From Anaeramoeba flamelloides (Eukaryota > Metamonada > Anaeramoebidae), in the NCBI GenBank assembly GCA_027625915.1, contig JANTQA010000070.1, positions 4,593,001 through 4,657,000 on the forward strand: 64,000 bases of DNA, given 5' to 3'. Below are positions 580 to 64,000 of this stretch, piece by piece. Positions within the stretch are counted from its first letter, which is position 1; every line of letters starts with the position of its first letter. A program made the position numbers and the translations under genes. The notes beneath the pieces are model-generated. The model was given only the letters and a program-made list of their open reading frames with translations, was not told the DNA's origin and searched no databases.

Positions 580-942
580 TCTTTTTCAAAAATTGTGACT
601 CACCTGAAATAATAAATTGAAAAAAAAATATTATCCTTTAATATTCAAAAACAATTAATAACTAAATATGATTTGTAATTCTCTTTTAAGTCATTCTAAA
701 TCTATAAAAGCCTGATATATTAAAAATTGAAAAAAATAAAACCAAAAACTAAAAAAAAGTGAGTCACAATTTTTGAAATGAGTATTACCCATTTTTTATT
801 ACTGAACTTTCACTGAAAAAAAGTTGAACAACAAGATTTTTTATGAATAATTAAATCCATTTTCAAAGACATTACATCGTCTCAATTTTCTTAGTGATTA
901 TTTGTATTTTCGAAGATCTCTTTTTTTTTATTCCACATGATC

Positions 943-1034
<92 letters not shown>

Positions 1035-1183
1035 AAAACAAAAATTTGAAAAAGCAAAGCTAAACTTGAAAAAAATGATTCTGATCCAAAAATTTGAAAA
1101 TATTTTTTGTAAAGAATACTGGAATAAACCTTCAAAACAACGTCCATTAACATTATAAAGTGAGTCAAAATTTATGAAAAATA
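580..1183. mobile_element. Non-autonomous DNA element, copy 1, with 84-bp poly-A core
   Basis: The left end reads TTCAAAAATTGTGACTCAC and the right end GTGAGTCAAAATTTATGAAA, an imperfect terminal inverted repeat. An extra internal copy of the right end lies at about 759-777. A related, longer copy lies at 25448-26190 and shares the internal stretch ATTACTGAAC...GTTGAACAACAAG. A short copy at 36738-36917 holds only the left 190 bp. Positions about 949-1032 are an uninterrupted run of A. There is no transposase ORF; long Phe/Lys frames here are translations of the homopolymer. The element sits in an intron of the HDAC gene. Confidence 0.65.
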
Positions 1184-1261
1184 GTTTACTTTTTTTTAAA
1201 AAAAAAATGAAAAAAACAAATGAAAAAAAAAATGATAACAAGTAATAAATAATATCCGTAC

Positions 1262-3396
1262 CTGTATAAGGCCACCAATCGTCTTCATATTTATGAAAAC
1301 TGCAAGTCATTACCCTATTTGAAGAAAAAAATGCTGTTTCTACGCCATCTCCATGATGAATATCAATATCAATATATAGCACTCTGGTATGATGCTTTAA
1401 TAATTCTTGTATTGCTAAAACGATATCATTGACAAAACAAAATCCGGATGCTTGGCTTTTTCGTGCATGATGATATCCACCTAATTTAAAATAATAAATT
1501 TATTTTTATTGTTTCAATTATTATTTTCAAATAAAATTAATTGATTACAGACGATTAATTAAGAATCTTATTTTGTAAAATGTGGGGAAACAATAAAGTT
1601 TTTAAAAATAAGCACTCAAAAAAAAAGGGGGGGTGGGGGGGGTGGGGTTATAATCACCCCAATTTTAATGTGATTTGTATTTAAAGCTAGTACCGAAATT
1701 TGTATTATTAATAACAGTTGTATCTTCCAAACCAAATCTCGAAGAACGCTTATTGAGAATTTATTTTTTCCACGGAAGTGGGTGGATACCAATACGGGAT
1801 AAATAATTTTTTTTTATTTCATTATTATCATATCCTAATTATTTATCATTCCTTTATCATATTATGTCAAATTTGTTTTTTTATTGGAGAATCGAATAAA
1901 GAATTTCGTGTGTCCTTTAATTTTATCTTGAATCTTAAACGAATTATTTTTATTTGATTAAAGGTAAATTAATTACAATGGAAATGTTCTTTTTGAAATC
2001 GAAAATTCTTTTTACTGTTGTGGAAAAAAAGTGAAACTGAAAAAAAAGTGAAACACGGTTTTTAATTGGGAACATTAATAGAATCACAGAGATCCAGAAA
2101 ATTCAAAAGTAAGATCAATTAATAAAAGAATAAATAAATAAATAAAGACAAAATGAAGGATTCAGCACAATAACAGTTTTTTTAATACTATCTTTTGGTA
2201 AGGTCTGGGTTTTTCTTTGATTGATCAATTATTATAAAACAATTTGTTCAAAAAATTGACTATTTTTGGGATCTCCAAAACCAGAAGAATAATTTCGATA
2301 TGAAAGTAGATTTAAATTGTATTTGTTTATTTGAAAATAATATAATGAATTACTATTTGGAGTTAATTGGTTTCTTCTTTTTATTGATTTTACTTTTTGT
2401 TTTCAGGTTCTATTAAGGTTTCCAATGAAAAACCGTGTTTCACTTTTTTTCCACAATGGTTAACAGATTTTTTTTGGTTTATTGATTTTTGTGCACAATG
2501 ATATGCTATGAATTTTCTTTTACTTTTTTTGTTTGAAAATTTTAGTCATTTAGGATCTATTGAAATTTTGTTTTTTGCATTTTTGCAATTAGAGATTTCT
2601 ATGAAACTTTTTTTTGTTGTGTTTTTTTGAATTTTTCAACAAAAAGATGTTTGATTTCACAATACCATTTTGAGTGGCAAACTTCTCCTTGGGTATGAAG
2701 AATTTTTATAATTGTGAATAGAGAACTTGTAGTAAATCATTCGTGAGAGTCTATGGATGAAACGTTTTTGGTTTTTGGATTTTGGGATTCCGCAACACAA
2801 CAAACAATTTTTTAATTGTATTTCTGAAAACAATCAACTAAGTTCTGGTTTTTGTTCAATACCATTTTGTAATTTTAGGATTTAAAATGCTTTTTTATTT
2901 GGCATTGTTTAAAAAAAAAAACAAATTGTTTGGAATGTTTGATACACACCAAACAGTTTCATCTTTTTAGTAAGAAAGCAATTTACGAAATAAGAAATTT
3001 ACCTGACCAGTTAATCGCAATCTCGACTTCTTTATCATTTAATAACTTTGCACCTAGTTTTGAAGATCCGGCCTGTAAGCATGAATACTCAAATAAACCT
3101 TTAAAAATCGGGCAATCTTCTTCAGGGTTATATATTTCCATTTCTTTGGAAAACTGCTCTTCGTTTTCAGGGTTTACTTTTTGTAAAAATTGTAAGTATT
3201 TCTCATCATGGAATTCAAGCAATTCATTTATTTCCATACTTGGCGATTTGTAAACTTGTAGCTTTGGTAAAAGCTGATAAGATTCTATTAATTCATGTGT
3301 CATACCAATCCTTTGTGGTTTCATTGGGTGTTCACTTCCATAATCAAAAGTGTTGAATGCTGGATCATAAATATAAGCAACTTTTTTCTTTTCCAT
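1262..3396 (-). CDS. Class I (RPD3-type) histone deacetylase, 5' part, two exons
   Basis: Exon 1 is 3396-3003 (ATG at 3396) and exon 2 is 1480-1262. The intron 1481-3002 has a GT donor and a TTAG acceptor, and joining restores [19 protein letters not shown]. Visible landmarks are [12 protein letters not shown] near the N terminus, a [10 protein letters not shown] stretch, the His-His pair in [17 protein letters not shown], and the zinc-site segment [16 protein letters not shown]. These are the hallmarks of class I deacetylases, which remove acetyl groups from histone lysines in the nucleus. About 204 residues are visible; the rest (second zinc Asp, catalytic Tyr) must lie left of the window, since exon 2 ends in a donor (GTACGG, phase 1) and no later exon is seen in 1-1260. 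The segment [13 protein letters not shown] replaces the usual HKYGEYFPGTG. Family certain; subtype (HDAC1/2/3/8) not resolved. Confidence 0.9.
1627..1648 (+). other. G-rich tract in HDAC intron
   Basis: Runs of 7, 8 and 4 G are separated by single T. This is conspicuous in such AT-rich DNA and could form a quadruplex on the plus strand, the non-template strand being the other one for HDAC. The only comparable C/G run is at about 21942-21953. Confidence 0.5.
2015..2459. mobile_element. MITE inside HDAC intron
   Basis: The left end carries TTGTGGAAAAAAAGTGAAAC and then a second GTGAAACACGGTTTTT. The right end reads AAAAACCGTGTTTCAC followed by TTTTTTTCCACAA. Together they are a nearly perfect inverted repeat about 440 bp apart. 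TTA on both outer sides (2012-2014 and 2460-2462) may be the target duplication. There is no ORF, so it is non-autonomous. A 3-bp TTA duplication would fit a PIF/Harbinger-like element, but that is inference. Confidence 0.65.
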
Positions 3397-4720
3397 TTTA
3401 GGACAAATAAAAGAATAAAAGAGATAAAAAAAATAAAGTATTGAAAAGTGATTTCTCTTTTGAACAAATCATTTGAAAATTCCAAGTTGCATTGAACTGG
3501 TTTCTATTTGCTTTTTTTTTGAAATACCTGAATTGTAGACAACCCAAATGCAGATGAAATTATTTTGGAAATTCTTCAAAAAGAAAGAATGAACTTGTTG
3601 GAGTTGAAAATAAAATAACACGTCTGAGATTTTACTTTTTAAGGAAGAGTATTAAAAAAAATATATAGTGAATGAAAATAATCCACTGACACGATTTTTA
3701 ATTGTGAATATTCGGAAAATTGTTGTATCATTTCTTTTATTTAAAAACAAATCCTTTTTTAGATATAACAAATTTTTTATGAACAAAGTACATAACCGAC
3801 ATAAAATTCATTAAAATGAACATTTCTGTCAAATACTCGTATCATTGGTTGATACCCTAAGTAAATTTACTTTTTTTGAATAGCCATAGAGTTTTATAGA
3901 GGTTTGCTCTGAATTTAGAAAATGATAATTTTTATTCTTATTTTTTTTGATTGATCGAATCTTATTTTGATCAAGTCTGATTTCATGAATCATTATTGTA
4001 ATAAGTTATGGGTTATGATTTTCATTGTTTGAATATTTCAAAAAAATAGATTTGATTTGAAATTTTGATATTATCCAACAATTTTCCTAATATTAATAAT
4101 TATAAATCATTTAAGGGGATTATTTTAATTACAGTATTTTTTTTCAAGAATATAGCAGTTTATAGAAAAAAAATCATTTTTTACAATCAAGTGCATTATC
4201 AAAAAAAAATTACCCCATCTTTAAAATTGATAAATAAAGTGAAAATTCCAATGAACAAATTTACTTTTAATACTATTTTCAAAAATGAATTGTTGTTTTG
4301 AAAAGATCTGAAAAATTTCTCTTGTATTTTTGAAAATGTCAAAATATCAATCATATGTATTTAAAATAAAAACAAAATTCTTTTCTTCTTCTGATATTTG
4401 AAATCTAAATACTAAAAAAAAATACATTTCATTTTCCTTTTTTTTACTTTTTTAAAGATTGGGTTTTCAAAGAATTAAGTATAACTCATTACTTTTTTTG
4501 AAAATAAAAAATACAAATCAAGTGATTTTTTTTTTTTTATCATTAGTTAATAATAGTTTACAGATCAATTCTTATTTTCAATTAATACTGACTATAAAAA
4601 ACAATTTAAAAAAAAATACTACTCATTTTTCAGATAATTTGGTTTATAAAAAGAATCTTAATTTCGACAAATCACAATAATTATTTTCAACTGGAGAAAA
4701 AGTGAATTTTTATCTATCTA

Positions 4721-12932: not shown

Positions 12933-14860
12933 ATAAATATACGCGAGCAAGTGTGTAACACAATTCCAAATTAAAGCTATTTTCGAAAAAAAACAACGAA
13001 AAATGACTTTAAAATATTTTTATTTAAATCTAATAAAAGCACTTAAAGATCCAATATTATTATTAATCAATAACCAATTCTTCATAATAATTCGGTTTAT
13101 TTGTTTGTATTACATTACCTTATTCAAAGATATCAAAATTTTCTGATCTCAATTTTATATGATATTTTTTATAGGGGTGAAAATTGGTTGATATTTTTTT
13201 CTTTTTGATTGTAAAAAAATTGTTTTCTGAAGATTCTTAAATTCCAACATATTTTCGAATAGAATTGAAAACTTGTGGAACCTTATTTTATTATTTTCAA
13301 AATCTTTTGAATCCTTACCAATATTAATACTTTTTATTGAATTTTATCGTCCATTTTTTTATAAAAAAAAAGTGAAAATTTTTTCATTTTTTAAAAAATT
13401 TTAACAAACATATTTTGAAATAAATACCATATATACTAATTCAATCAATATTAGTATTACTCTTAATTGTATAGTACCAATTTAAGAAAAGAATTGCCAA
13501 AAAAGAGAAAATATTATTTGAAATGTAAAAAAAAACAAAAATTCTCCACTTTGTTGGAAATATCTTATCTATTAATTTCTTTTTCTTTTATTATTATTTT
13601 TTTTTTCAACAACTAATTTATATAAAATATTATTTTCAATCTTTTAAAATTTATTTCTTATAAATTTCAAAAAAAATAAAAATAAATAAATAATTATAGA
13701 AAATGAAAAAAAATGCAAAAAAAATTTATTTAAAATATATTAAAGAAGGATCTTTATTTGAAATCAATATTATCTTTTCATGTCGAAAAAAAATTATTGA
13801 TCAAATTTCAAAAAAGGAATTTTCTTTGACAATGTTTGACGAAGCACAAGAAACAGTTTATCGTCATTTATTTAGGAATTCTTTGGGTTCATTTATGAAA
13901 AGTGACATATATCAAAATTTACTTGAAAATTTGCAAAAGGATTCAAATTACAATTTAAATACAAATACTAAAAAATGTTATTTAGTTCACAACAACTTAA
14001 AAAAACATTTAAACAAAAAAAATAAACCAAAAGTATTGAATGAAGAAAACCATTATGATGGAACAAAGGAACAAGCAGATGAATTATGTGAAAATTTATT
14101 AATGATGTTATTAGATATCATTAAATCAAATTATAATTTTAGAAGAGAACAGATTAAAGTTAAACAAATTTTGAAATCAATCCAATTTAGTAGATTTTTA
14201 GAACTGTCTGCGCACCTTCAAAATGTTACTTTCAATTGTCTCAGAAATGAAGAAGATAAATTAAGATTTTGGATCAATTTGTATAACACAATTATTTTAC
14301 ATAGCTTTATTGTTAACGGCTTTCCTAAAGATAAAACCCATTATGAGAAATTATTAAAAAAATCAAAGTACTTAATTAATCAGCAATATTTGTCATTAAA
14401 TGATATTTATCATGGTATATTAAGAGGAAATATCGACCCAAAAAATAATAATCGCAAATATTTCAATATCCAGTCAAATTATTTGAATGATTTGAGTTTA
14501 CAAAAAGTAGACCTAAGAATACATTTCCTCTGTTATCATTATTCATTCCCTTCTTTTATTACAGTCTATCATAAAGAGAATTTTCAATTTTCCTTGGAAA
14601 AAATTATTAAAAAGGTTTTGCAGCCCTTAGTTGAAATAGATCAAAATCAAAATAAAATTATTTTACCATATATTTTTAATCTGTACGAAAACGATTTTCA
14701 AAGTTATCACAATATTTTTGATTGGATTAATCTTCAATTAAATACAAATTTTAAGATGAATAAAAATCCATACACAATAAAATATTCTAATAAAAATAAT
14801 TCAACACAGCAAATTACTTTTGATCATAAAGCAACATTATTAAGAAAATTTATCAATTAA
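11154..14860 (+). CDS. RGS and DUF547 domain protein, two exons, 954 aa
   Basis: Exon 1 is 11154-12857 and exon 2 is 13700-14860. The intron 12858-13699 (GTAATT...TTATAG) is phase 0, and joining gives KDYKTQVRSYKKMKKNAKKIY, continuous across an RGS helix. The N-terminal 300 residues are Lys/Gln/Glu-rich coiled coil with a CAA/GAA-encoded Q/E run near residue 122-160. The RGS domain is at about 519-640 (LLSTPLSFDYFKEFLCKQFNQENIMFFQDV; later FDEAQETVYRHL and FMKSDIYQNLL). DUF547 is at about 700-890, with FWINLYNTIILHSF near 756, LSLNDIYHGILR and DLRIHF. RGS domains speed GTP hydrolysis by G-alpha subunits, so a role at heterotrimeric G-protein signalling membranes is likely. The DUF547 function is unknown. 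Its usual Cys-containing GAxSCP-like motif reads YHYSFPSF here. Confidence 0.85.
12900..12940. repeat. TA/TG microsatellite in intron
   Basis: An (AT)n tract followed by (GTAT)n lies just inside the RGS-DUF547 intron. Confidence 0.85.
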
Positions 14861-28098: not shown

Positions 28099-29577
28099 TT
28101 AATAGTCTTCGTCTTCATCGACATCTGACCAAAAGTATTCGCATCCATTTGAATTGATTATCCTATCTTCCATTTTGTTATAATTGGAAATTATATTCGA
28201 CACTTGCTTGTTCATTGACTTGATATTGTAGTTCTGTTCTAGCCTTCTGTTTTTCATATCGTTAATTTCCTTTAAGATTTTTTTTTTGGATTTTTTCTTC
28301 TTTTTACAATTTTTTTTTAATTTCTTTTGTTCACGAAAAAACCTATTTTGCCTCTGTTTCATTTTTTGAAGATATGAATCCATTGTGTTTGGATCAATTT
28401 TTTTTAAAACACCATCACTATCAGATTCTGACCGCAAAGGTGAACAGTCCTTTAAATAATTGCTTATGTGTTTAAAACTATTTTCTTTACCATTCTTGTT
28501 CTCGCTGCAACTGTCGCCGTCGCTGTCGCTGTCGCTATTGCTATTGCTGTCGCTACTTAATTGGAACTGTTGAATTTCTTTCTCGAGATCGTCTCCAATT
28601 TCCTCATATTCTGGCTCTTTGCCTTCGTTCTCCATTTCCACGTTTTTGAGGATCTCACGCATTTGTTTTCTTCTTTTCTGGGTGCCTTTCCCAGCTAATC
28701 GTTTAAGATCGATAGGTTGTTTTTTTTTTGTTTTGTTAGTTTTTAATTGGATCTCTCCATATAATTTCTCATAGCATTCCTCAATCGTTCTGTTTGGAAC
28801 ATATTGGGCTACCTGTTCCCAAAAGTTGATAGAGTCTGTGTCTACAAGTGCGTGTGCTTTTTTTAGTAATTCAATTTCTTCAATTGTCCATTCTTTGTTA
28901 ATTACAGCTTTTTCTTTTTCATTCTCACTCTCACTCTCACTGACACTTTGTAATTTTTTGTTACTTTTTTTCTTTGTTGTTTTCTTTGTTTTTTTCTTTG
29001 TTTTTTTCTTTGGCTTTTTTATTGGTTTTTTCGATGATTTTTTCTTGATTTTTCTCTTTGGTTTTTTCTTTAGTTTTCTCTTTGTTTTTTTTTTTGTTAA
29101 TTTGTTTTTTGTTGTTTTTTGAGAATAATTTGTATGTTCCTCATTATCAGAATTGCTTGGCTCAAAACTTGAGCTATTTGAATTAGATGTAGTTTTTTTT
29201 GAGGAGACTTGGTTTGATGAAGAAGAAGAGGAAAATGAGTCTTGTGAGATAGAACTGGCTTTTGATCTTTTTTTCTTTCTTCTTTTCTTTCTCTTCTTTT
29301 GCTTGTTCCTGGAAGCTTTTCGTTTGAGGTTTGCAGAAATTAGCCCCTTTTTTAATCTATTTTTGGCTATTAAATGTTTTTGTAGCTTTTTTTTTTTTTT
29401 TTTTTTTTTTCGTTTTGGTTTTTTTATTGGACTTTCGGGCTCTGTGAGGCTTGCTCCAAAGTTGCATTTATCAGAAAATTCTGAACATGAATCACTAAAT
29501 GAGTTTGATTCTTCTGAAAGAAAGGTTTCTTCGTTTGTAGTTGTGTGACTACAAGAAGAAAAGGTTAAAGAAGACAT
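28099..29577 (-). CDS. Basic SANT/Myb protein, M18BP1 (KNL2) C-terminus-like, 492 aa
   Basis: Single-exon frame; the ATG at 29577 is the first Met. The N terminus is Ser-rich. Residues about 55-215 are extremely Lys-rich blocks with Ser runs (nuclear or nucleolar, DNA/RNA-binding character). A SANT domain at about 229-280 starts KEWTIEEIELLKKAHALV and continues FWEQVAQYVPNRTIEECYEK. It is followed by KGTQKRRKQMREILKNVE, then acidic Ser/Asp stretches and an acidic C terminus FWSDVDEDEDY. From memory, human MIS18BP1 has the same order: SANT with a FWxEVA core and xECxxKY, then GTLKRKQQMREFL. M18BP1 recruits CENP-A deposition factors to centromeres. No SANTA domain is visible, so this could be a trimmed M18BP1-like protein or another SANT chromatin protein. 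Confidence 0.6.
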   Translation of the reverse strand: MSSLTFSSCSHTTTNEETFLSEESNSFSDSCSEFSDKCNFGASLTEPESPIKKPKRKKKKKKKKLQKHLIAKNRLKKGLISANLKRKASRNKQKKRKKRRKKKRSKASSISQDSFSSSSSSNQVSSKKTTSNSNSSSFEPSNSDNEEHTNYSQKTTKNKLTKKKTKRKLKKKPKRKIKKKSSKKPIKKPKKKTKKKTKKTTKKKSNKKLQSVSESESENEKEKAVINKEWTIEEIELLKKAHALVDTDSINFWEQVAQYVPNRTIEECYEKLYGEIQLKTNKTKKKQPIDLKRLAGKGTQKRRKQMREILKNVEMENEGKEPEYEEIGDDLEKEIQQFQLSSDSNSNSDSDSDGDSCSENKNGKENSFKHISNYLKDCSPLRSESDSDGVLKKIDPNTMDSYLQKMKQRQNRFFREQKKLKKNCKKKKKSKKKILKEINDMKNRRLEQNYNIKSMNKQVSNIISNYNKMEDRIINSNGCEYFWSDVDEDEDY

Positions 29578-30084
29578 TGACAAAATATATTTGTTGAAAA
29601 TTAATGATCCAAAAAAAAAATCAAGTTTATTATTTTTAACGGTTGTTTTCCAAAATTTCTTGAAAATTACTATTACCCTTTTTATTTGTTTCTGTGATTT
29701 TTATTTGAAAAGTATTCATTTTTTTCACAAATCAAAGATTAAATTCCAATTAAAAAATATTTCTTCGAACATTTTGAGAATTCAAAAGAATGAAGTTTTT
29801 ATTCTTCTTCTTGCTGGTTTGGAAAAATTGATCTCCTCAAACATTTACTCACACTTTTCTTGCTGAAATTTCTTCCTTATCTCTTTACAAAATTTTTTCC
29901 CATTAATTCAGCTACTATCATTCATGAAGCAAAGTTTTTTTCAATATGATCTTTCTTATCCTCAAATCCAACTTTGTTAAAATCTATATTGGTATCAAAA
30001 TTTAATATTGGAGATATTTCACTGTAGTTTTGGAAAGTCTGTATAATTGTATGACAAATAATGTATTGTAGAATTCTACCATTT
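29578..30084. other. 5' flank of SANT gene
   Basis: A T-rich frame at 29591-29866 (plus) has no recognisable domain. Nothing else is supported. Confidence 0.5.
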
Positions 30085-32305: not shown

Positions 32306-34113
32306 TATAAAAAGATAGGTAAAATGAGTTTGAAAATTCATAATTAATTATTTAAACTGTGTAAAAAGTAATTTTTATATCATTAAAATAATTCGAATTA
32401 TTACTAAATATATTACAGGAAAAATAAAATTAATTTATTTAAATGTACATTTTTAATAAATTATAATAATCCGAATAAAAATATAAAAATAAATAAAAAG
32501 GAAAGGAAATGAAGTTATTAACACTAACCCTCTGCAGTTTTTGCTGATGTAATATAAAATTTGGCACCAATTTTTTTTGAATATTGTTTCCCAGATTTAA
32601 TTAGCTCCTCATAATTTTCATTTTCGTCTTTTAAATCATTTTTGTTGGCAGCAACTACTAAAAGTGGCAGTGTTTTTAGTTCTTGTTTTAATTGACCATG
32701 CCAAAAAGATAATTCATTTAAGGAATTGTCATCTGTGAGATCAAAAACAAAAATAGCTGCTCTGACCTTTCTATAATATAGTGGCACCAAAGATCTAAAA
32801 CGTTCTTGGCCAGATGTATCCCAAATCCTATAAATATATATAAATAGAAATTATAACAATTTTGGTTTTATTTTGTTAACATTTTTAAAAAGTTTTTTGC
32901 TTTTAATGAATATTTTTTGAGTCTAGATCAAGAATCTGATACTGGACACCTAAAATTTTTGATCTTTGAAGCCTGCCAAGAGGGTAACCATTCACAAGCC
33001 AAATGAAATGGCTTTAAGTCCTCTGTTTCAAAAGCCAAATCACCTACTTGAAAAAATCTACAAACATCAAGAATCTACAAATGTCTTTCAAAATTAACTT
33101 GAAGAATTTTTGTATTTTTGAAAAATGTCCTGAAATAATTTTCAATAATCTCCAATTGTTTGAAATTAAAGTTGTTTTGTTAGAAGTGCTGAACAATACT
33201 GATAAATTCTAATAAATGGTTGAAAATTTTTACTTGATTTTCCTTTTTGAAATTTTTCTGATCAAACTTTGAATAAAACATTTTATGAAGTCAAGTGTTA
33301 AGAAACTCTTCAAAATTAGTTGTTCTTCAAAATATTCTTTGTCCTGTGCTGATTGACAAGAAATAGTTATGAAGATTTATAAAAATGGAAAATGAACTAA
33401 AAATTTTTTGAAATTTATTAGAATTTAGCAGTATGGAGAAGTTATGCTGATTTATTGTTGATTTAATTTGAATAATAATGTTTGTATCGATTACCATCCA
33501 AGATCAATTGCTCATTAGATAAATCGGTATGGATATCTTTTGTTTTAACAAAGAGTCTGTTACTTGTTCATTAGCAAGCGTTTTTCCCTTTTCAGAATTT
33601 TCTTTTTGAATGTTTTTTCTCGGACTAAATTTCTCGTTTTGCAAACATTTTCTTTTTTTATTTGTTCAAATAAAATAGCTTATCAAAAGATCAGGCTTTG
33701 AAAAAATGGGATTTTCAAAGTATTCTTGGATTCTGATCTTTTGTATTTGTCGTCGTGGTTGCTTTGTTTATAAGCGGTGAGACGAGCAAAAGTAAAAATC
33801 ATAAATATTTTTTGAACAAAAAGCGAATTCCAAAAAATTGCCTTTTCTCTTAAAATTTCAATGTGGTGTTGATCAAAAAAGAAAGAAAGTAATGTTAATT
33901 TTGTTCGTACCTTAATGAAATGATCTGATCTTGAATATTCAATTTTTGAATTGCAAAAGCTGCGCCGATTGTTGTTCCTGTTTTTGTTGTGAATGTCCCT
34001 TTTGTGTATTGTGTGACGATTGAAGTTTTCCCGCAACCAGAAGTTCCTAGCATAACAATTTTAATAACATAAGAACTCAAAGAATTCTCTTCTTCGCTGT
34101 CAGAGGTAGACAT
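32074..34113 (-). CDS. Rab5-type small GTPase, three exons, 218 aa, complete
   Basis: Exons are 34113-33911, 32827-32529 and 32228-32074. Introns are 32828-33910 (GTACGA...TATAG) and 32229-32528 (GTTAGT...TTAAG). The joined 657 bp is exactly 219 codons. Motifs are the P-loop GTSGCGKTS, switch I TIGAAF, WDTSGQERF, NKND, the TSAK loop, and a C-terminal NSNCC for double geranylgeranylation. TIGAAF and SLVPLYYR place it with Rab5/21/22/31, which act on early endosomes. The switch II Gln is present, so it should hydrolyse GTP normally. An acidic/Ser N-terminal extension of about 15 residues precedes the G domain. The start is the ATG with no in-frame alternative. Confidence 0.93.
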
Positions 34114-34967
34114 CGTGTAATAGCAATTTTTTAAAAAAAATGAAAGGTTTTTTTTTTTACAATTAAATTAGTGAACTCTAGATACTAAGTAGACGAAATT
34201 ATTTTCTTATAGTTTGGATCTTCTTAAAAAATACCAAAATTAGAGATTAAACCATTCAAAATAAAAATTTTCTAAATATTTTTCGAAAAAATCATGTTTT
34301 TTATTGAGATAAAGTTTAGTTTTTTTTAAATAGTCTTAAAAATAATGAAGAGTACAGACCGATGAAAATTAAAAACAGAAGAAAATTCTTGATAGAAGGA
34401 CTCAAGACTATTGATGAAAGAATTAGTTAGTGTGAAATCGATCAAATGATTAAGACACACCGATTTAAGAACCAGAGAGTAAAACTTGTTGTTTATGATG
34501 TATCAGGGTTAAACATTTAGGGTTTTATTTCTGAGGTGGAAGTGCATTGTTAAATGAATATAGATTTGTCAGAAGTTTATAATTATTGTTTTTTTATACT
34601 AGAAAAGAAAATGATTTTAACAAAAATAAGAGGAATTTTCATAAAGAGAAAAAAAATTTTAGTTTCAAGTAATTTTAAAATAATTAGAAAAACAATAAAA
34701 AAATTTATTTTAAAAACAATATAAAAATAGTCTTTTGAAACTATTGTCTGAGAGAAGAACTTGGTAGTTTTCAAGGAGATGATTTATCAACAATTAAAAT
34801 TACAAGAACTCGCTTTTTCTTTTATTATCAATTAATCCATTAACTGATCATTTTCAAATTTTGGTGAATAATTTATTCGTAATTCTAACAAAAAACCAAA
34901 CGAATTTGAATCAAAAAATTAAATTCTCTTGACAAAATTATTTATCGTTTTAAATTATACAGTAAAT
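34114..34967. other. 5' flank of Rab gene
   Basis: No ORF with domain-like pattern. No promoter motif I can support. Confidence 0.5.
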
Positions 34968-45865: not shown

Positions 45866-46997
45866 TTATTTCTTTTTTTTATAAAAAGATTTTTTTTTAC
45901 TTTTATTAAAATCAAATTTATTAATGATTTTATTAAGATAATTTTCCCAATTAATAGTATTTGTTTTCAAATTTGAGGATAATTCAAAAAGCATGTCCCC
46001 GTTATAAGATTGATGCCAAGTAAATAAAATGCAGAAATTATCATTATTTGGATTTAAATTTTGATTTTGAATTTCGCCCTTCTCGAGAGCTGTCACCGAT
46101 TTCATATCAAAAATTATAGGGTGGTAATCGTCATAATTTTTGAATGACCAAATTAAACCATCTTTATCTGCAAAGGCGATCTTTTTGGTAATTTCTTCCA
46201 CTGAAGCAGTAGACATATATAGATTCGAATCCTTGATATCGATTTTTTCTTTGGATAGAAGGTCACCAGTAAACATTTCCATGCATAATACTAATTGCCC
46301 CTTGGCTTTATTCCCGTTTTCCTTCATCAGTTGGTAGGATTTGGTTTTATTACCCTTTTGTAAGAGTTGGAAAACAGAATTAGTTAACGTAACTTGACCA
46401 ATTAATTCATCACCAAATAATTCGAAGGAATAGACTTGAAAAACAATGTTTTGGAAGGAAGAAAAATTTTCCTTTTTGCCAATTGTAAAAACAAAATATT
46501 CTTTGTCCCATGATGGATTTTTTTTGTCTTTTACTTGATAAATTTTTGTTTGTTCTTCTAAATTATTATATAATACCTTAACATAAAATTCGTTTCCTTT
46601 CACTTTTTTCAATTGGGATACGCCAATTAAAAGTCTATAATTATCATCATCTTCAATTATCTCATTTTCTTTGTTAATTATCATTGATGTTCCTGAAGTA
46701 ACATTTTGATTATTATTTCCATTCACATTCTGTGTGTTTTGCATTTTATTTAAAAGCATTGAACTTAATGTTTGATTAAATTCATTTTTGTCATTGTTTT
46801 TAATTGTCTGTGAAGAATTTATTGTAGAACCCTTTTCAGAAATAACATCTTCTTTAACATCAATTGTATCAATCACTTCATATAATGATCCAGAAGCGAT
46901 TAATTTTTCATCTTTTTCATCCTCTTCCTCATCATTTTCAAATTCTGAATCATCACTAATTTCAATATCCAATTCTTCTGAAATTTCTTCCTCTTTA

Positions 46998-47034
<37 letters not shown>

Positions 47035-50000
47035 AGTTATCTTTTTCGTTATTATTAATGGTAGTGTTTTTATTAATGGTAGTATTTTCGTTATTTATAG
47101 AACTTTCCTTTTCTAATTCCTGTTTAATTTCTTCTTTGACCTTTGTCGATTGATTATTTTTTAATTCCTCTTCAAACATTTTATCGATTTCGATTAAAGT
47201 TTGTTCGGTAATGTCCTCTGGTAAAATCGACGTGTCACAATTTTTACTTTCTAAAATACTGAGACATTTGTTTTTAATTTCTTCTCTAATTTTCGATCCT
47301 TTAGAATTAAAAATTCTTACTTTAAACCACGCAGTTTCCCCTCTATGATTTTTTAAATTTACAAAATCTGGTATTGAATGAAAAGAAAGTACAGATTGTA
47401 ATCCTCGATCATCAATTCTTTCGGCTAAAAGATGGAGGCAGGAATCTCCATTTTTATTAACACAATTCCAATTGATAATTCTTGGATTTGTTTTATAAAA
47501 TTCTAAATACCAGTCAAAGGTATATGATAGATTTGTTAAACATACATTTAAAAATGGCGTATTCTGATTATTATCTACAGATTGTGGATCAGCGCCACTT
47601 TTTATTAATAATTCAATTAAGTTTGGATCATCAGTTTCTTTAGAGGTGCAAACGAGATTTAATGGTGTGCTCCCATTGATTATATTTTTAACATTGATCA
47701 TTTCTCCAATAAACTGAGTGGTTCTTAAATAATCAACAATCTTTAAGATTTTGTTTTTTTTGGTTTTTTATTTTTTAATTTTTTTTAAAAAAGATACATT
47801 AACAATATTTAGAATAATGAAATGTTTTTTATATTTTTTGTTTAAAATAATCGAGAAATAACAATTTTAAAAAACTTTTGAAAAAATATTTTTAAAAGTG
47901 TCTAGAAAATAGTCGATAAACTTTAAGAGGATCTATTTTTGGTACTATATTGTAAAACATTTTTTTTTTAGTTTTAATTTCAGAAGAACTTATTTTCCAA
48001 TGATTTTTTTTATATATTTCTCCTTGAAATTAGAGTAATAGGGGAGTTATTCTACCCTGAAAAAAAAAAAATCAATCAATGTAAACTTTTTTCAAATGTT
48101 TTTAATAATTGAAAAAAAAAGTTTTTTTTTTATATTTCGACTTGAAATTAGAGTAACAAAAAAAATTGTATTTCCAAAATTATATTAATTATTGAAATAC
48201 AAGATAAAAAATCCTAGGAAAAATTTTTTTTTTAGAAGATGTTTAAATGATTTTGGTTTCTATGATCTCTGTTATTTGGGGGATTTTTATGAATTTATTC
48301 GTTTTAATATTTTTATCCTTTGGTATTTATTTAATTTTTCGAAATCAAATATATCAACTCCAAATTGATTTAATAATACAATTTTTTATTCTGTTTAGAA
48401 TGATCGATTTTTTTGGTTCTTGGAGTTATGGGAATATTAAAGAATGAAATAAAAAATAAATAAAAAAATATATTGTTCTATCAATCAATAATTTTCAATT
48501 TTTAACAGAGGGGTTGATTTATTTGTATTGATATATAATTCTGTATTTTTTTGTTTTGAGAGAATTGTAATTTATAAACAATTGTTCCAATTTCAATTAG
48601 TGAATGGTTCCAATTTGGTATTTCTTCAAGAATTTATTAAATAAGATTTTTTTTTTCAAAAATTGAATTTTGGTGTGTTAAATATTTTTAATTGAGTTTA
48701 CTTTTCAAAATTATTACCAACTTAACTTGATATGTTATTATATATTTACAAAAATTCTAGAATTAAAAAAAAAAAAATGAGGTGGGGGTGCCTTTATAAA
48801 AGTTAATTAATGTTCAAAATTTTGGAGGTGAGCTAACAAAAAAAATGAATTAGGAAATGTGCTTAAATTCTATTAACAATTATTGATAGATCAATAAATG
48901 GTTAGATAGCATCAACTAATTTTATTTGTGTTCTTCTGTTTTGAAGAACCGAACCTTTACCTAATACCAATCGTTTGAAAAAAAAGATTTGATCGAGCTA
49001 AACAGGCTAGGTAATTCAAAAAATTAAATGAAAATAAAAAAATAAAAAATGAAAAAATGATTTCCATATTTTACAAAAATCAAAATTATTTGCAATTTGA
49101 ATGAAATTGTATTATTATGATTCTTTTAACTGTTTTAGCTGTGTGGAAAATTTTGAATTTTAGTTTAAATTAATTAAAATAAAGATATTGTTGTTAATTT
49201 ATTGTCTTTATTTGTAAGACACAATTACTTCAAAAAGAAAAAAAAATTAAAAAATTCAGCCAAAGCCATTTTTAAAGCACAAACTTTCAACAAAAATGAA
49301 TGTACAATAAAAAATCTCAATTTAATGCACAAAAATTTATATATTAATAAAATAATCCGAGTTTTTTAAAATTCCAAAAAATCTGCCTTAATTTGGAATT
49401 TTTTTTTGTGACTTAATTTTTGTTCAAAGTTTGTGTCTTTAAATTGGTACAGAATGTAAAATTATTTGTTCCTTTTATTTCAAACAATAAACTAAAGGAT
49501 TAAAAATCATAAAACATATTTATTTCTTTAACAATAATAAAATTATTAATAATAAAAAAAAAAAAAAAATTATGTTGTTGTTTTAGAGATAACCCAATTT
49601 TTTATTTTTTCAACACCAGCCCCAAAAAGAGACAGATTATAATTTTTGTGATTTTTAAAAAAAATTGCCTCAAGTGTTCCTTTTTATAATTTATGAAAAT
49701 TTTTGTTTCAATTTCCTCAAATCCCGTTTCTTCAAAGTGATCTAAAATAATAAAAAGATCTTGACAAATAACCTAAAAAAAAAATTGATCAAATAATGTT
49801 AATCCATTTTGAAAAAATAATCGTAATTAAATTATACATCATAATTACATTTAATTTTTTTATTTAATTGAATCTTATTTAAGGACAAAGTTTTCAGGTG
49901 AAAATTGTGGATATAAAAATTCTTTTGAAAGTGCTCTATAATCTCAATTAAATTTACACACTGGGAATTTCTTGAACAAAAAATGGTTAAATTATCACAA

Positions 50001-56106: not shown

Positions 56107-58924
56107 TTAATAGTTGATAATTTTTTTAAGTTTCTTTATGATTTCTTTATCATTTTTAAATGATTTTAACAGATTAACAATGACATCCTTTTCTAATATT
56201 AAAGTATAAACATTGAAAATTGATTCACTATAATCCTTTTCTGTAAGATCTAATTGATAGAAAAAAAAAGGTGTATTTTTTGTATCAAAATTTAAATGTT
56301 CTTTTTTGTGTTCTTTTATCTTTATTTCTTTATCTTCTTTTTGATCAAAATTTCCTTGATCGTTGTGCTTATCAATTAATCCACTTTCAGTCCCCTTTAT
56401 CTTCTCTTTCTCTTTCTCCTTCTCCTTCTCCTTCTCCTTCTCCTTCTCCTTCTCCTTCTCCTTCTCCTTCCCCGTCTCATCCCCATTCTCCTCCCCCTTC
56501 ACTTCCTCCTTCCCCGTCTCGTTTTCTGTCACTTCAAGATATTTTATATTATTCAAATTAGGATTATCTTCTATTGTAAAAAATTGATTATTATTTTGAG
56601 AAATAACAATTAATTTTTTTCGATTATTATTATTCTTTTTATTAAAATTATCATTAGTCTGGATTGTGAAAATGGGTTGAAGGAGCATATCCATGAAAGA
56701 AAATATTTTGTTTGAATATTCCTTTTCAATTTGTTTACCAATCATTTCGTAATTTTTTTTATATATACCCTTATTAGCCAAAGTTTGAATAATTTTTGAA
56801 ATCGTTATTAAGGTTGATCGAACTCTTGAAGAAATGAGATTTTTTTTTAACTGGAAAATTGTTTCTGGGAAGATTAAAAAAGGAGATAAAAATCTTAAAA
56901 AAAAGAAACAGGATACAATAAAATATTTTGAATTATTAAATTTTTTTTCAGAAATTTTTTCAATTACTTGTAATAACGATCTGATAGGGATAGGAATTTT
57001 TAAGGAATTGATCAAGATTTGATTTAATATTATTGTGATATAATATATATATTTATTTTGGTTCTCAAGAATTTTCTTATCAGTCAATGGTATATTTTCA
57101 TTATTATTTGCAAAGCCGTTATAATTTTGATCGTATTTGATGATTTGCAAATTTAAATCATCATTTATAATTTCATGGATAATGTCTTTCAAATGATTTT
57201 TAATAAATTTTATTCCTAACAAATTAATATAATAAGATAAGGATTTTATAAGTATAGAATCTGTACGGAATAAAGAATTAATATCTAGTGTATTTTTTAC
57301 TTCATTATTAACCAAGGTATTGAAAAAGATTTCTAATTTGCAATTTTTAGAAAAGATTTTAATTAAGGATTGAGAAATAGTATCAAAGTAATCGATTGGA
57401 GAAAAATAAAATAATTTTTTTAAAAATTTAAAATTAAATATTAAATTTAATAAAACATTTTTCATTTTTATCGACAATGTTTTTTTTTCTTCTTTGATAA
57501 ATTTTTTTATTAAATATATATCTTGATATTCAGTTTTTTTAGGATAATTAACTATTATGATATTATTATTATTTATCCAAAATCTTTTATCATTTTTTTC
57601 TATTTGACATTTTTCCTTTTCATAGTTAATTTTAACAATTTTAATCCATTCATGTAAATTTATTTCAATATCACTTTTAATTTCTTGATCATTATCATCA
57701 AATATACCATCAGAACTATCATTAATAACATACGCTATTTTATGATAAATATATTTATCCATATCATCATCATCATCATCGTCGTCGTCATCATCATAAT
57801 CATCATCACACTCATTATAACTGTTGTCAATAACGTTATCATCATCATTGTGATTATTTTTATTTTGATCAATACGATCATCATTACTATTACTATTATC
57901 ATAATTTGAATGATTTTCATTATTATTTTTATAATAATAATAATTAGATATTCCAGGATGTAAAAAAAAGATATGAGATAAAAATTTTTTTCTTGATTTA
58001 CTTAATAAAGCGATATTTAAATTCAATTCTTTCATATCATTATCTATGAAAACCGAATTATTGGATTCCTGGTTATCAAAATTTAACCGTTTGATGGAAA
58101 GTAATGTTTTGATTTGTGAATTATAATCTTGTATTTTCTTTTCTGCCCATGAATCTAAATTAGATAATTTTTGGTAATGTATTTTTTTTTTCTTCAAAAA
58201 GCTCTGTTCATCATCATTATTTTTAAATAAATAGTTCAAGCCTAATTGGAAGTATTGATAATCCCAAATAGCAGTTAGGTGCGAAACCCAATTTAATCTT
58301 GATTTTGTATCTTTGCAAGAAAATTTATATTTTTTATTTTCTAATTTAATCGTAATTAAATGGTATATTATTTTATTATTATTTTCAATTTTTTCAACAA
58401 GTTTGGTTTTAATTAATTGAATGTTTATTAAATCAATTTCCTTAATTGGGCGTAAATCATTTTTTTCAACATATATTTGTAATTTAATACCATCTAATAT
58501 TATCCATCTTTTTTTCCATTTGGTCAATACTAAGGAATTTGAAAATACATACAAATGTCCATAGTAATGAATCGGTATTTTTTTATTTTTTTTGTAAGTT
58601 TTCAAATCTTCAGAATTTTCAATTAAAGGCTGATGAAATTGATATAAATTTTCATTATCAAAATCAAAATTAAATTCATATCTTTGATGTATATCTTTGA
58701 TTGATAAAAAAATGACTTTATTTCTTGGGAATATACCTAGAGTACCATTGTTTAAAGTACCAACAAAATATTCTTTATTAGGAAATAATTTTTGCAATTC
58801 GCTATCAATAAAAACCCAATTATTTTTTTCAATGTTTAAAAATTTAAAATAATTTAAATTTATTTTATTTTTATTATTGTCCCGGTTACTCTCACTGTTA
58901 TTCTTATCATAATCATCGTCGTCG

Positions 58925-58958
<34 letters not shown>

Positions 58959-61900
58959 CATCATTGTCCACAACACTATTAATAATAATATTTTCTTTTT
59001 TTTTCTGATTATTATCATTATTGATTGATTCATTAATATAAGCAACCAAATGATAATTTGGATTATTTTTTAAAAAATGATAAAATTTAATTTTTGCAAT
59101 TTTTGATAATATTTTATTCCTCCATAAATGTAATAATGATATTTTTTTGGTTAAATTAATAATTATTTGTTGAATTTTTGATTCAATATTTAACTGATTT
59201 ATTGTAAATTGAAATAAATCTTTATGGATTTGTTTATCCTTTTCATATTTGTTAATAGAATTTTCAATCCAGTCTAATAAATTTGTATTTCGATTTTCAA
59301 ACAAATAATTTGTTTCAATTTTTTTCTCTTTTAATCTTTCTCTTTCCTTCTTGTCGTCCTTCTTATTTTTATTATTTTCACCTTTTTTTTCATTCACATT
59401 TCCACTCTCTTTATCGGAATCATTATTTTTATTGATTGTTTCGATGGGCGAAAGAAAATAATTAAAATTTTTAACCAAACTGAAATATTTTGTCCATTCG
59501 ACTAATAGTATTGTATCTGTGAAAAAAAATTTAATATCTTTTAAAAATTTAAATTGTAATATTATACAATATTCATCCGTTGAAATTTTCTTTTTGATCT
59601 GAATCAATGAACGAAGATCATATATCTTGTCTGGGTTCAAGTCATTCTCATTATTAAAAATTTGTAAAATCCAACACTTCAAATAGCCCCATTTTTCCAT
59701 TAATTTTAATTTATTTGAATTATTGACATTATTTTGTTTCATGAGATAAATGCTATTGGAATATTCAATTGGAAAATTTAATAAAGAATCGGGGTTTTGA
59801 TCAAAATTATTTAAAATGTTCTTCGTAAAAAATATCGACTTTTTAATTGGCAAATAATGTAAAAGAAAATAATTATAAGAGTTCTGTTTCTCCTTGTCGA
59901 CTTGCCTTTCTATGATATTCGTAGAAGAGAAACTTCTTACTTTGGGTGTGTATTTTTTTAATTTTGATAATTGATTGGGTAAAATAGTTAAAAACCTTGA
60001 AAATTCATAATTTATGTTAATTTTTTGTGGAACAATTAATTTTGTATTTTTATTTGGAATGATAACAGTTTTCAAATTTTTATTTTTTATTTTGATATTT
60101 AATTTATTAATATTTTCGATAAATAAATAAAAATTATTTATATCATAAAAATTATCATTTTTATTAACACTATTATTATCAATAGAATTTTTTTTTTCAA
60201 ACTTATTCTTATCATCATCATCATCATCATTGCCGATTTCCTTGTTTAATTGTGGTAAATTGTTGATTTCATTTTCTTTAATTATTATATAATTATTATT
60301 TTGATTAATGAATTCTTTGAAATTTTTTAATTTTTTATGATTATCAATTAGATTTAAATTGATATCCTTTAGTACAAATAATTTACATAGCCTGCTAATC
60401 AAAAAAATTTTCCAAACTTTATAAATATTGATAATTTTAGTAATGCTATTGCTATTAAAAGAATTTTGCTCCATATCTTTTTTTAAAAGCAATTTAAATC
60501 TTTGAATTTCTGATCGAAACCAATTTATGATCACTAAATATCGTTTTTTTATTTGGAAAAAATGTTGAAATTCCACTGGTGACAATAATAGTATTATATT
60601 TTTTATTAACAAAAAAAAATTAATCCAATCTTTAAATTTTTTATAAGAATTCACTTGGCAAGAGAATTCAGCATTTTTAAAATATAAATTGAAATCATAC
60701 TTGTCCCTTTTCAAAAATTTTGAATTCTTTTCAATTGATATAAAATTAAATAATGGGATAATTTTTTCACAACTATTTTTTTTTAATATGATTAAAAACC
60801 AATTATAAATTATAAATGTTTTTTTGCTATAATTACCTAATTTATGATCATTTTCCAAATAAATGTAATCATCTAAGAAAAGTGGTAAATCTATATTTAT
60901 ATTTAAATTCTCTTTAAAGTTTTCCTTTATAATATCCACCATTTTTTTTTTATTATGATCCATTTTTTGCACCTTGTTATCATAACTGTCTTTCTTGCCA
61001 CCACCACCACCAGTATTAATACTATTTCGATTAGAATTATCAAATGATGATAAATTATTAGTTATCTTTTTTGTTTCGGGCTTTTTATTAACATCGCTTT
61101 CATCTATTTGATCATAATAATTTGATAAATTTTTTTTTATTATATTTTTATAAAACTCAATTTTATGGATTGGTTCTTTGAATTGATCAAATAAATTATT
61201 TTTGATTTGGATTTTTTTGGGATTATTTAATAAAAAAAATGAATTTAAATCTGAATCTTCCGTTTGTCGTCTTTGTAAAATATTTTCAGGTTCCGAAGGT
61301 TTTACAAATTCAACATTTTTTAATTGGACTTTCCCAATTTTCATTTCATTGTTTTGCGCTGATACGATAACATTATTCTTTGACTTTTTTATTAAAATTA
61401 AAAATTCATTTTTTTTATAGGACAATAAATTATCGTTATCTGACTTGAAAGAATTTAAACAAAATAATCTCATTCTGTTATCTACATTATTTTCAATATG
61501 TAACCTGGCTAATTTACTTAATAATTTTTTTTTCCAAGTTTTTAATAACGCAATTTGTTCAGTCACTGAACGTTTTATTTGATAATTTTTTTTCTTTTCT
61601 TTTCTTTTTTTAAAAAAAATTTTATCCATTTTTAATTTTGTATTTTTTTGCAAATCAATTAATGTTATTTGCAATTTATTTAATTCGGCATCGATCCAAT
61701 TCAATAATTGATGAAATTTTCCTTCTCGTTCTGATTTATTCTCGCCAATGGTAATTGGAAGGGTTAATTCTTGAAACAATTTGCACATTTTGAACATATT
61801 AAACCATTCAATTATCTCTTTATGGGTTTTTGCTTGGAATGTTTTGGTCAATTCCCCTTTCAGTCTTAATTTAAATTTTGTATTATTTAATGAACTGGAA

Positions 61901-63203
61901 TCAAAATCATAATTTATTACCTTGCGCAAATCAATTGAATCCTTTGGCTGAAGATATTCTTTATTTTTATAAAACCCAAAATACCAAGAGTTGAGCTTGC
62001 AGTATATTTTTTTAAATTTTTTATTATCGTAAATATGTAAATATCCCTCCTTTTTGCACGGGAACGCATAGCCCGACTTAATTTCCGATTTTACATTTTC
62101 AAATAGAAATATACTTTCCTCAATAGACTTTTTTTTTTTTATTTTCCGAAGTCGGTGATTTTTATTTTGAATTGTTTTGTTTTGGTTATTTTGTAAATCT
62201 TGTTTGTTTGTCTTATTAATTTTATAAATTTTTTGAATTTTATAATTTTCTTCATCGTTGTGTTTTTCTTTATTTTCAATTTCTAAATCTTCCAAATATT
62301 TGTTATTAAAAATTTCTTCAATTTTCGGGATTTCAATAATTTTTAATTTTGATCTTGGCGCTAGCCCGATTTTATTTTGTAATTCAACTTGTAGAAATAT
62401 ATTATCGACTTCATTTAATAAAACAAACCATTGATTTTTTTCAAATGACAATTCTTCTTCATTTAAAATATTATTATGACTTGCAATTGAATAAGCTATT
62501 TCTAAATCTTCTAATTCTAAAAAATTGATTCTAGCATCTATACTTTGAAAATATTCTTTATATCTTTCGAGGTTAGCTAAACGCTGCAATAATTCCAATA
62601 TACCAGAATAAATTGAAAAATATATGTTATAATAAATGACTGTATTCTTGTTTATTCTTGATTTTTTTTTATTCTTTTGTAAATAATTTGGGAACTGTCT
62701 TTTGACAAATTCCATTCTTTTTTTTTCTATTTCCATTTTTTTCCCATTTAATTTTTGCAATTTGGTTTTTAAGTTATTAATTTTTTTTTCCAAATATTTG
62801 ATTAATTTTGAAATCATTATTTTATATTCCTGAATTAAATTTGGTTCAATTGGATTTTTAAAAATTTCAAAATAAAAATAACATTGGATGTTATCAAACC
62901 ATTCATGAAAATTTAATGCATTTTCACATGAAAACGTTAATTTATCTTCATTTGAAGCACTAATTTCAAAACAATTCTCTCGATTACATTCTAATGAACA
63001 ATCACAGATCATATTATAGTCTCTTAAATCTATTTGAGATTTCGAGACATAATTTTCTTGGTTAGAGTAACAATAAATTATACCACTGATTAATCTGTAA
63101 TACATTTTTTTCCATTTGTTTTTTTTTTTGAAATCCTGTTGATAAATAAAGCCTTCAATTTCAAAAGTATAATTTTCAAAATTATCTAATTTATTTTGTA
63201 TTT
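56107..63203 (-). CDS. Giant multi-PH / SH3-like repeat RasGAP, last large exon, at least 2364 aa
   Basis: The exon runs from a likely acceptor (TATTTAG, exon from 63203) to TAA at 56107. The first ATG (63105) falls inside the first PH domain. The upstream in-frame sequence EGFIYQQDFKKKNKWKKMYY is a normal PH start, so the true start lies in an earlier exon. Numbering from that Met, PH domains are near -15-80, 345-448 (KKEGYLHIYDNKKFKKIY), 750-850, 1135-1225 (KWGYLKCWILQIF) and 1505-1610 (YGHLYVFSNSLVLTKWKKRW). Each is followed by a coiled coil with LxxW, a WKKKLLSKLA-like helix and an SH3-like stretch (ELSFEKNQWFVLL...GLAPRSKL; NNWVFID...LGIFPRNKV). A RasGAP domain at about 1870-2150 has NSLFRTDSILIKS (arginine finger about 1948) and FFLRFLSPFLIFP. 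It should stimulate Ras GTP hydrolysis at membranes. A KE hexanucleotide repeat (about 56400-56475) and Asp/Asn runs are low complexity. Confidence 0.85.
56395..56480 (-). repeat. Coding GAGAAG hexanucleotide repeat
   Basis: About a dozen tandem GAGAAG-type units encode (KE)n near the C terminus of the RasGAP protein. They produce misleading Ser/Pro and Ser/Phe frames on the plus strand. Confidence 0.85.
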
Positions 63204-64000
63204 CTAAATAATATTTTTATTGAAAATAAGAATTATAAAAATATATTGGGGAATAAATAAAATATATAATTGTTAGTTTTTAATGTTGTATATAGTGAAA
63301 AAAAAATGGTAATTAAAATAAAGTTTTATGTGTAACTCATTTTTTTTTCTTTAAATATTTAAAATAATTTTAAAAGATTAATTTGAAAGAGTTTGTAAAT
63401 CTTATTTGAGTCATTTCAAGGAATTCAACAAATTTATTTTTTTCAATAGTCAGAACCAAAATTTTTATTAAATCTATTTTGTTTTATAAATTTTTTTGTT
63501 TTTTTTTTTGTTTGATCGTTCAATAATTCTTTCCATACAAAGTGAATTATAATAACATCAAATAACTCTAAAAAGTACTTTTGTAAACCATTATTACTGT
63601 TGATTAATGAAATTATTCAAAAAAAAAAAAAAAAAAAAGATACAAAATTCTATATTAAAAAGATTTAGTATTATATTTTTCTGTTTTTATATTTTTCTGT
63701 TTTTATATTTTTCAAAAAACAAAAAAATTTGTTTGAAATAAATTAGTTTGATATCAATACTTTTTATTTATTAAATTTAAAAATTAATCAGAAAAACTAA
63801 TGTTTTACTTTTCAGTTACTATTAATGCTACAAATTAAAAATTGCATTGAACTTTTTTTTAGTTTCATTTATTCCCTCAAACAGATTGATTTTAACTGTT
63901 ATTAGTACAACAAACTCTTAGAAAGAATTAAAAGTGTAATTGAAGAAAAAGAAAAATGTTTTTTTCAATGATTAATATAATTTTTTTTACTTGATCTTAC
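63204..64000 (-). other. Upstream intron or 5' flank of the RasGAP gene
   Basis: No coding frame is seen. The last bases, read on the minus strand, are GTAAGATCAAG, a good donor site. So 63204-64000 may be one complete intron, with the previous exon ending exactly at the right edge. A poly-A run lies at about 63621-63638. Confidence 0.4.

Follow-up and report, generated by a model that had tools for sequence, protein, structure and literature searches.

The window, i.e., the whole stretch of 64,000 nucleotides of Anaeramoeba flamelloides DNA analysed here, carries genes on both strands. On the minus strand lie an HDAC-like gene with GT-AG intron signals (894-3468), a gene for a Myb-domain protein (28099-29583), a Rab-like GTPase whose two pieces are separated by about 1 kb (32527-34167) and a C2/ankyrin protein (45866-47701). 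The plus strand contributes a protein with RGS and DUF547 (13703-14860) and a frame resembling ribosomal protein L21 (43677-44132). The HDAC, Rab and L21 names were given by eye.

The gene discussed here is a single open frame on the minus strand that ends in a TAA stop. It encodes five PH domains at a spacing of about 384 residues. Behind each come a helical hairpin and an SH3-type stretch, and a RasGAP domain comes last (Table 1). A first-pass annotation had seen a unit of roughly 400 residues, repeated about five times, made of PH, helices and an SH3-like stretch and closed by a RasGAP with an arginine finger. This layout was borne out. The listed ATG start, at 63105, falls within the first PH domain. 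The codons preceding it encode the beginning of that very domain, and the true start must therefore be sought further upstream. The frame begins with a TTAG acceptor-like site, as does one exon of the HDAC-like gene. Low-complexity runs are part of the coding frame: an (EK)n tract at 56379-56528 and N/D runs at residues 1417-1435 and 1808-1818.

Table 1. Features of the array gene, from the N-terminal to the C-terminal end of the encoded protein (positions in the window unless marked otherwise)
Feature	Position	Strand	Evidence
Probable unit 0 (PH, hairpin, SH3)	L009:6244-7476, beyond window	-	135 bits with N-terminal-unit profile; 36 bits with PH profile
Open frame, units 1-5 and RasGAP	56107..63216	-	2369 codons plus stop; probable unit 0 outside window
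PH domain, unit 1 (residues 15-124)	62845..63174	-	Pfam 2.2e-13 on fragment; family HMM 84.4 bits
Helical hairpin, unit 1	62509..62835	-	Helix A 1/1000 shuffles; helix B weak, 77/1000; family rows
SH3 domain, unit 1	62326..62511	-	Pfam SH3_2 3.8e-4, below cut-off; PDB matches; profile comparison
PH domain, unit 2	61750..62064	-	Pfam above cut-off on fragment; AlphaFold model
Helical hairpin, unit 2	61483..61755	-	Profile 0/300 decoys; predicted helices 115-153 and 159-196 of model
SH3-type stretch, unit 2	61297..61494	-	Unit-0 SH3 profile 9.4 bits, decoy maximum 6.0
PH domain, unit 3	60571..60888	-	Without Pfam match; profile and AlphaFold model
Helical hairpin, unit 3	60352..60579	-	Predicted helices; helix A 16/1000 shuffles; helix B weak, 63/1000
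Degenerate SH3-type stretch, unit 3	60016..60285	-	Window copy 0.7 bits; family position 3 vs unit-0 SH3 E 4.1e-8
PH domain, unit 4	59440..59778	-	Without Pfam match; profile 26.3 bits, best decoy 15.1
Helical hairpin, unit 4	59065..59349	-	Helix A and helix B 0/1000 shuffles; joint profile 2/300 decoys
SH3-type stretch, unit 4, with N/D-rich insertion	58693..59067	-	Pfam SH3_9 0.025, below cut-off
PH domain, unit 5	58246..58578	-	Pfam 4.6e-11
Helical hairpin, unit 5	57937..58209	-	Helix A 3/1000, helix B 3/1000 shuffles; joint profile 6/300 decoys
Divergent SH3-type stretch, unit 5	57532..57741	-	Window copy unsupported; family-level link only
RasGAP domain	56677..57429	-	Pfam PF00616 79.9 bits, cut-off 28.3 (fragment scan); neurofibromin 2.4e-10
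Arginine-finger codon (residue 1984)	57265..57267	-	Aligned with neurofibromin
C-terminal tail with (EK)n run	56110..56676	-	No Pfam family over cut-off

The repeat is evident when the protein is compared with itself. In whole-unit alignments, five of the ten pairs of units scored above all 200 shuffles, three fell slightly short (1, 3 and 7 of 200 shuffles) and two failed. Leave-one-out PH profiles recovered all five PH domains, PH3 narrowly, and none of 300 shuffled proteins scored as high. The C-terminal tryptophan of the PH domains recurs at intervals of 365 to 402 residues. Pfam scans of fragments found PH over the cut-off in units 1, 2 and 5 and no match for PH3 and PH4. The Pfam scan of the whole protein was insensitive; it missed PH and RasGAP altogether and listed weak SH3 families only, which is why absence in such scans is not counted as evidence. 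AlphaFold predicts a PH domain plus hairpin in unit 2 as well as in unit 3, where the PH fold had been in question; PH4 is assigned by profile only. In a Foldseek search the unit 3 model found nothing at E 0.001 or better; its top match, at 4.6e-3, is a PH domain. Tandem-unit alignments were left out of folding because identical overlapping parts had been aligned to each other.

The hairpins are unequal in clarity. Within the single protein, helix A is supported in all five units and helix B is clear in three; the stretches for this shuffle test, like those of the SH3 cores below, were picked by eye, which flatters the comparison. A joint hairpin profile recovers unit 2, units 4 and 5 less well, and does not recover units 1 and 3. 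Against PDB sequences the hairpin profile found none at E up to 10. The hairpins carry a positive charge of 0.066-0.143 per residue, which is unexceptional; 22% of the protein's 90-residue windows reach 0.10.

The gene does not stand alone. In the genome that holds the window (254 Mb, 76 contigs), 150 of 299 candidates were scored, and at least 228 RasGAP matches reached E 0.001 or better. Each match stands for an exon, and their number should not be read as a number of genes. Among the matches listed, the RasGAP of the window gene does not appear. Many of the matches sit in open frames of about 1600-3200 codons. From 20 loci picked for long open frames, 16 encode a RasGAP together with five or six PH domains. 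In the remaining four (L020, L021, L022 and L028), likewise RasGAPs with long frames, the visible part shows no PH unit ahead of the RasGAP, and the frames run off the loci; L022 has a partial PH match at the locus end, behind the RasGAP. The array is thus not universal, and other RasGAP layouts exist in the same genome. Three further loci comprised L032, with a long frame and five PH domains, and the short-frame loci L030 and L031, with none. In sum, the layout recurs in 17 of the 23 ten-kilobase paralog loci fetched, 21 of which had been picked for long frames, a choice that favours the array. Eight short loci of 3.6 kb (L001-L008) gave no match to the unit profile, and tblastn searches for relatives in collections of viral contigs and genome contigs gave none.

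In nine paralog proteins all six units lie in one frame; for L023, L026 and L027 this count includes one split PH match each, merged by hand. Across the family the PH-to-PH spacing has a median of 391 residues and ranges from 322 to 537 (n = 77). A sixth unit probably belongs to the window gene, too. On the same strand, 5.5 kb upstream of the frame with unit 1, a further frame encodes PH, hairpin and SH3, and we infer that it is joined to the rest as unit 0. A similar upstream piece (47 bits) is seen in L025.

In the window protein alone the SH3-type stretches are weak. Pfam gave no SH3 match on fragments of units 2, 3 and 5 and matches below the cut-off for units 1 and 4. When four of the stretches were tested with SH3 profiles built from one another within this protein, all four failed. 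In a shuffle test, 27, 86, 388, 52 and 785 of 1000 shuffles scored as high as the SH3 cores of units 1, 2, 3, 4 and 5, respectively. Unit 1 has 17 matches in the PDB, the best being drk (E 0.0084), with intersectin and GRB2 among the others. In the unit 2 model, pLDDT stays below 50 from model residue 216 onward, i.e., in the region after the hairpin, where the SH3-type stretch lies.

The family provides the missing links. The SH3 domain of unit 0 is clear at this level: with a limit of E 0.1, SH3_2 matches 8 of 10 members, the best at 2.7e-9; the window gene's own copy reaches 0.0039, below the cut-off. A profile of unit-0 SH3 scores above all decoys in 3, 4, 8, 2 and 0 of 17 proteins at positions 1 to 5. 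In the window protein it does so in units 1 and 2 and over part of the domain in unit 4 (6.3 bits; decoy maximum 5.8), not in units 3 and 5. Pfam found SH3_2 in 3 of 17 paralog stretches at position 1 and in 3 of 17 at position 2, and no SH3 family at position 4. When the profiles of all six positions were compared with each other, with boundaries set by eye and with two near-identical paralog pairs (L010/L011, L025/L029) in the alignments, 14 of 15 pairs scored above 25 of 25 column-permuted controls. The strongest pair is units 2-3 (E 1.2e-17), and units 0 and 2 are linked by hhalign at 7.6e-10; units 0-4 (E 0.0046) and 4-5 (E 0.0092) are weak. Unit 0 versus unit 5 is the sole pair not above the controls; position 5 matches positions 1, 2 and 3 instead. 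The stretches at the unit positions thus appear to be linked to each other through the paralogs. An SH3-like stretch in every unit is accordingly plausible at the level of the family; in the window protein it is indicated for units 1, 2 and part of 4, whereas units 3 and 5 look degenerate.

The RasGAP domain itself scores well above its Pfam cut-off, and the predicted arginine finger is in place: R1984 aligns with arginine 1276 of neurofibromin (position counted from the printed alignment). The FLR motif is present as FLRFLSPFLIFP; the A of FLRXXXPAXXXP, the form of the RasGAP motif given in PMC12871552, is F in the window protein. The RasGAP regions of the 16 paralogs compared are 25-29% identical to that of the window protein. 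In this set of 17 proteins the arginine finger is kept in all, the FLR arginine in 16 (L026 has lysine) and the following lysine again in all. Since the catalytic residues are kept at such low overall identity, catalysis appears to be under selection. GAP activity of the window protein is therefore likely, and its substrate, judged from the domain family, would be Ras.

An open frame of this kind might also be a decayed or mis-joined gene, or an artefact of repeat assembly. The degenerate SH3 stretches of units 3 and 5 and the gap between unit 0 and unit 1 would fit such explanations. Against them speak 2369 codons free of stops at 22% G+C, catalytic residues that are kept, an array that recurs across the fetched loci, unit PH domains that are only 16-31% identical and direct DNA repeats of just 40-57 nt. 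We consider any of these explanations very improbable.

As an enzyme class the protein is well known; what is new is the array architecture and the family of genes that carries it. In the literature searched, no title or opening of an abstract describes a PH-hairpin-SH3 array combined with RasGAP. With the established RasGAP proteins (neurofibromin, p120GAP/RASA1, SynGAP; PF00616) the window protein shares the arginine finger, the FLR motif and the conserved lysine. Known RasGAPs have, to our knowledge, one or a few targeting domains, whereas the PH-hairpin-SH3-type unit stands five to six times in the window protein and its family. SH3 and PH also occur beside RasGAP in RASA1, in the order SH2-SH3-SH2-PH-C2-RasGAP; SH2 and C2 were not among the matches of the window protein in the pieces scanned, which cover it partially and include the insensitive whole-protein scan.

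For the unit, the closest known counterpart is found in Tiam, a Rac GEF with one PHCCEx module, which in a paper's title is reportedly termed a protein- and membrane-binding module. In Tiam1/Tiam2 PHCCEx (PDB 4k2p, 3a8p), a PH domain is followed by an antiparallel helical hairpin, the same order as in the window unit; the latter, however, ends in an SH3-type stretch. The best Foldseek match of the unit 2 model is Tiam1 PH-CC-Ex (E 4.5e-6, 221 columns). The rmsd is about 19, which suggests that the rigid arrangement of unit 2 differs from that of Tiam, and sequence profiles match Tiam2 in the PH part only. The PH domains of the adaptors SKAP55/SKAP-Hom are among the best profile and fold matches. 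These adaptors carry PH and then SH3 in one chain, as a single unit with no hairpin between and no catalytic domain. Basic contact zones on the CC and Ex parts of Tiam PHCCEx are described in PMC3531375.

What might such an array be good for? We lean towards the view that the gene encodes a giant, probably active Ras-family GAP that is placed by a multivalent docking array. The C-terminal RasGAP would offer its arginine finger to a Ras-family GTPase, and units 1-5, with the probable unit 0, would form a multivalent docking scaffold ahead of it. Single contacts would be weak: PH plus hairpin with membranes or acidic tails of partners, SH3 with partner proteins. Summed by avidity, they could hold the GAP at a single site of the cortex or an endomembrane. 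The spacing of about 390 residues would have been kept because the docking partners are likewise multivalent. Multivalency here follows from the anatomy of the array, and to this extent the first-pass idea of a multivalent membrane/ligand array controlling Ras stands. Its membrane part is less secure, since the full phosphoinositide motif was not found.

Membrane binding by the array indeed remains uncertain. The full phosphoinositide motif G-x-L-x-K...[KR]xR, searched as one pattern, has no match in the window protein, nor do its PH domains show the canonical basic motif KX(n)[KR]XR in beta1-beta2; PH5, by eye, has the KKR ([KR]xR) half only. PH1 is acidic, with a net charge of -5. Among 94 aligned PH domains of the family, just 13 carry the [KR]x[KR] pair in the beta1-beta2 loop. 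Together with the family-level SH3-type stretches, the missing motif and the rarity of the pair would suit an array that is mainly a protein scaffold, its PH domains and hairpins serving to bind proteins and signalling complexes being assembled around one GAP, rather than a membrane device. PH2 and PH5, however, are basic (+11 each), the second position of the pair, taken by itself, holds a basic residue in 63 of the 94 domains, and PH domains can, according to PMC3344901, bind phosphoinositides at a non-canonical site. We therefore take the pure protein scaffold as possible, yet rather unlikely.

The modules might also fold back on the RasGAP as an autoinhibitory clamp, to be released by a ligand. 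A folded assembly would be in line with the similar number and spacing of units in diverged paralogs; the spread of that spacing and the N/D-rich insertions, however, fit a loose chain better, and we doubt this explanation strongly.

A more far-reaching idea may tentatively be put forward, speculative as it is: this lineage could have turned one RasGAP into a combinatorial address system. In a large and old family, an array of six modules and near-constant length would have been kept while the modules diverged, each protein reading a particular combination of lipids and partners and inactivating Ras at a place of its own. A composite module that stands five to six times ahead of a GAP, in a layout kept in diverged paralogs, makes the family a natural setting in which to test how the place of Ras inactivation depends on multivalency and spacing.

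In a viral structure library a single match reached E 0.001 or better; it is a giant-virus protein whose name refers to an RGS domain, and the match spans 127 columns. Among protists, RasGAPs have been studied in Dictyostelium. According to PMC12871552, IqgC has the arginine finger, and its FLR motif is almost complete; its layout is IQGAP-type, unlike that of the window protein. The same paper counts at least 18 RasGAP-domain proteins in Dictyostelium. Against this number stand the exon-wise matches in the window genome, which are not a count of genes. With the layout kept in diverged paralogs, they suggest an extreme expansion of Ras control in this protist.
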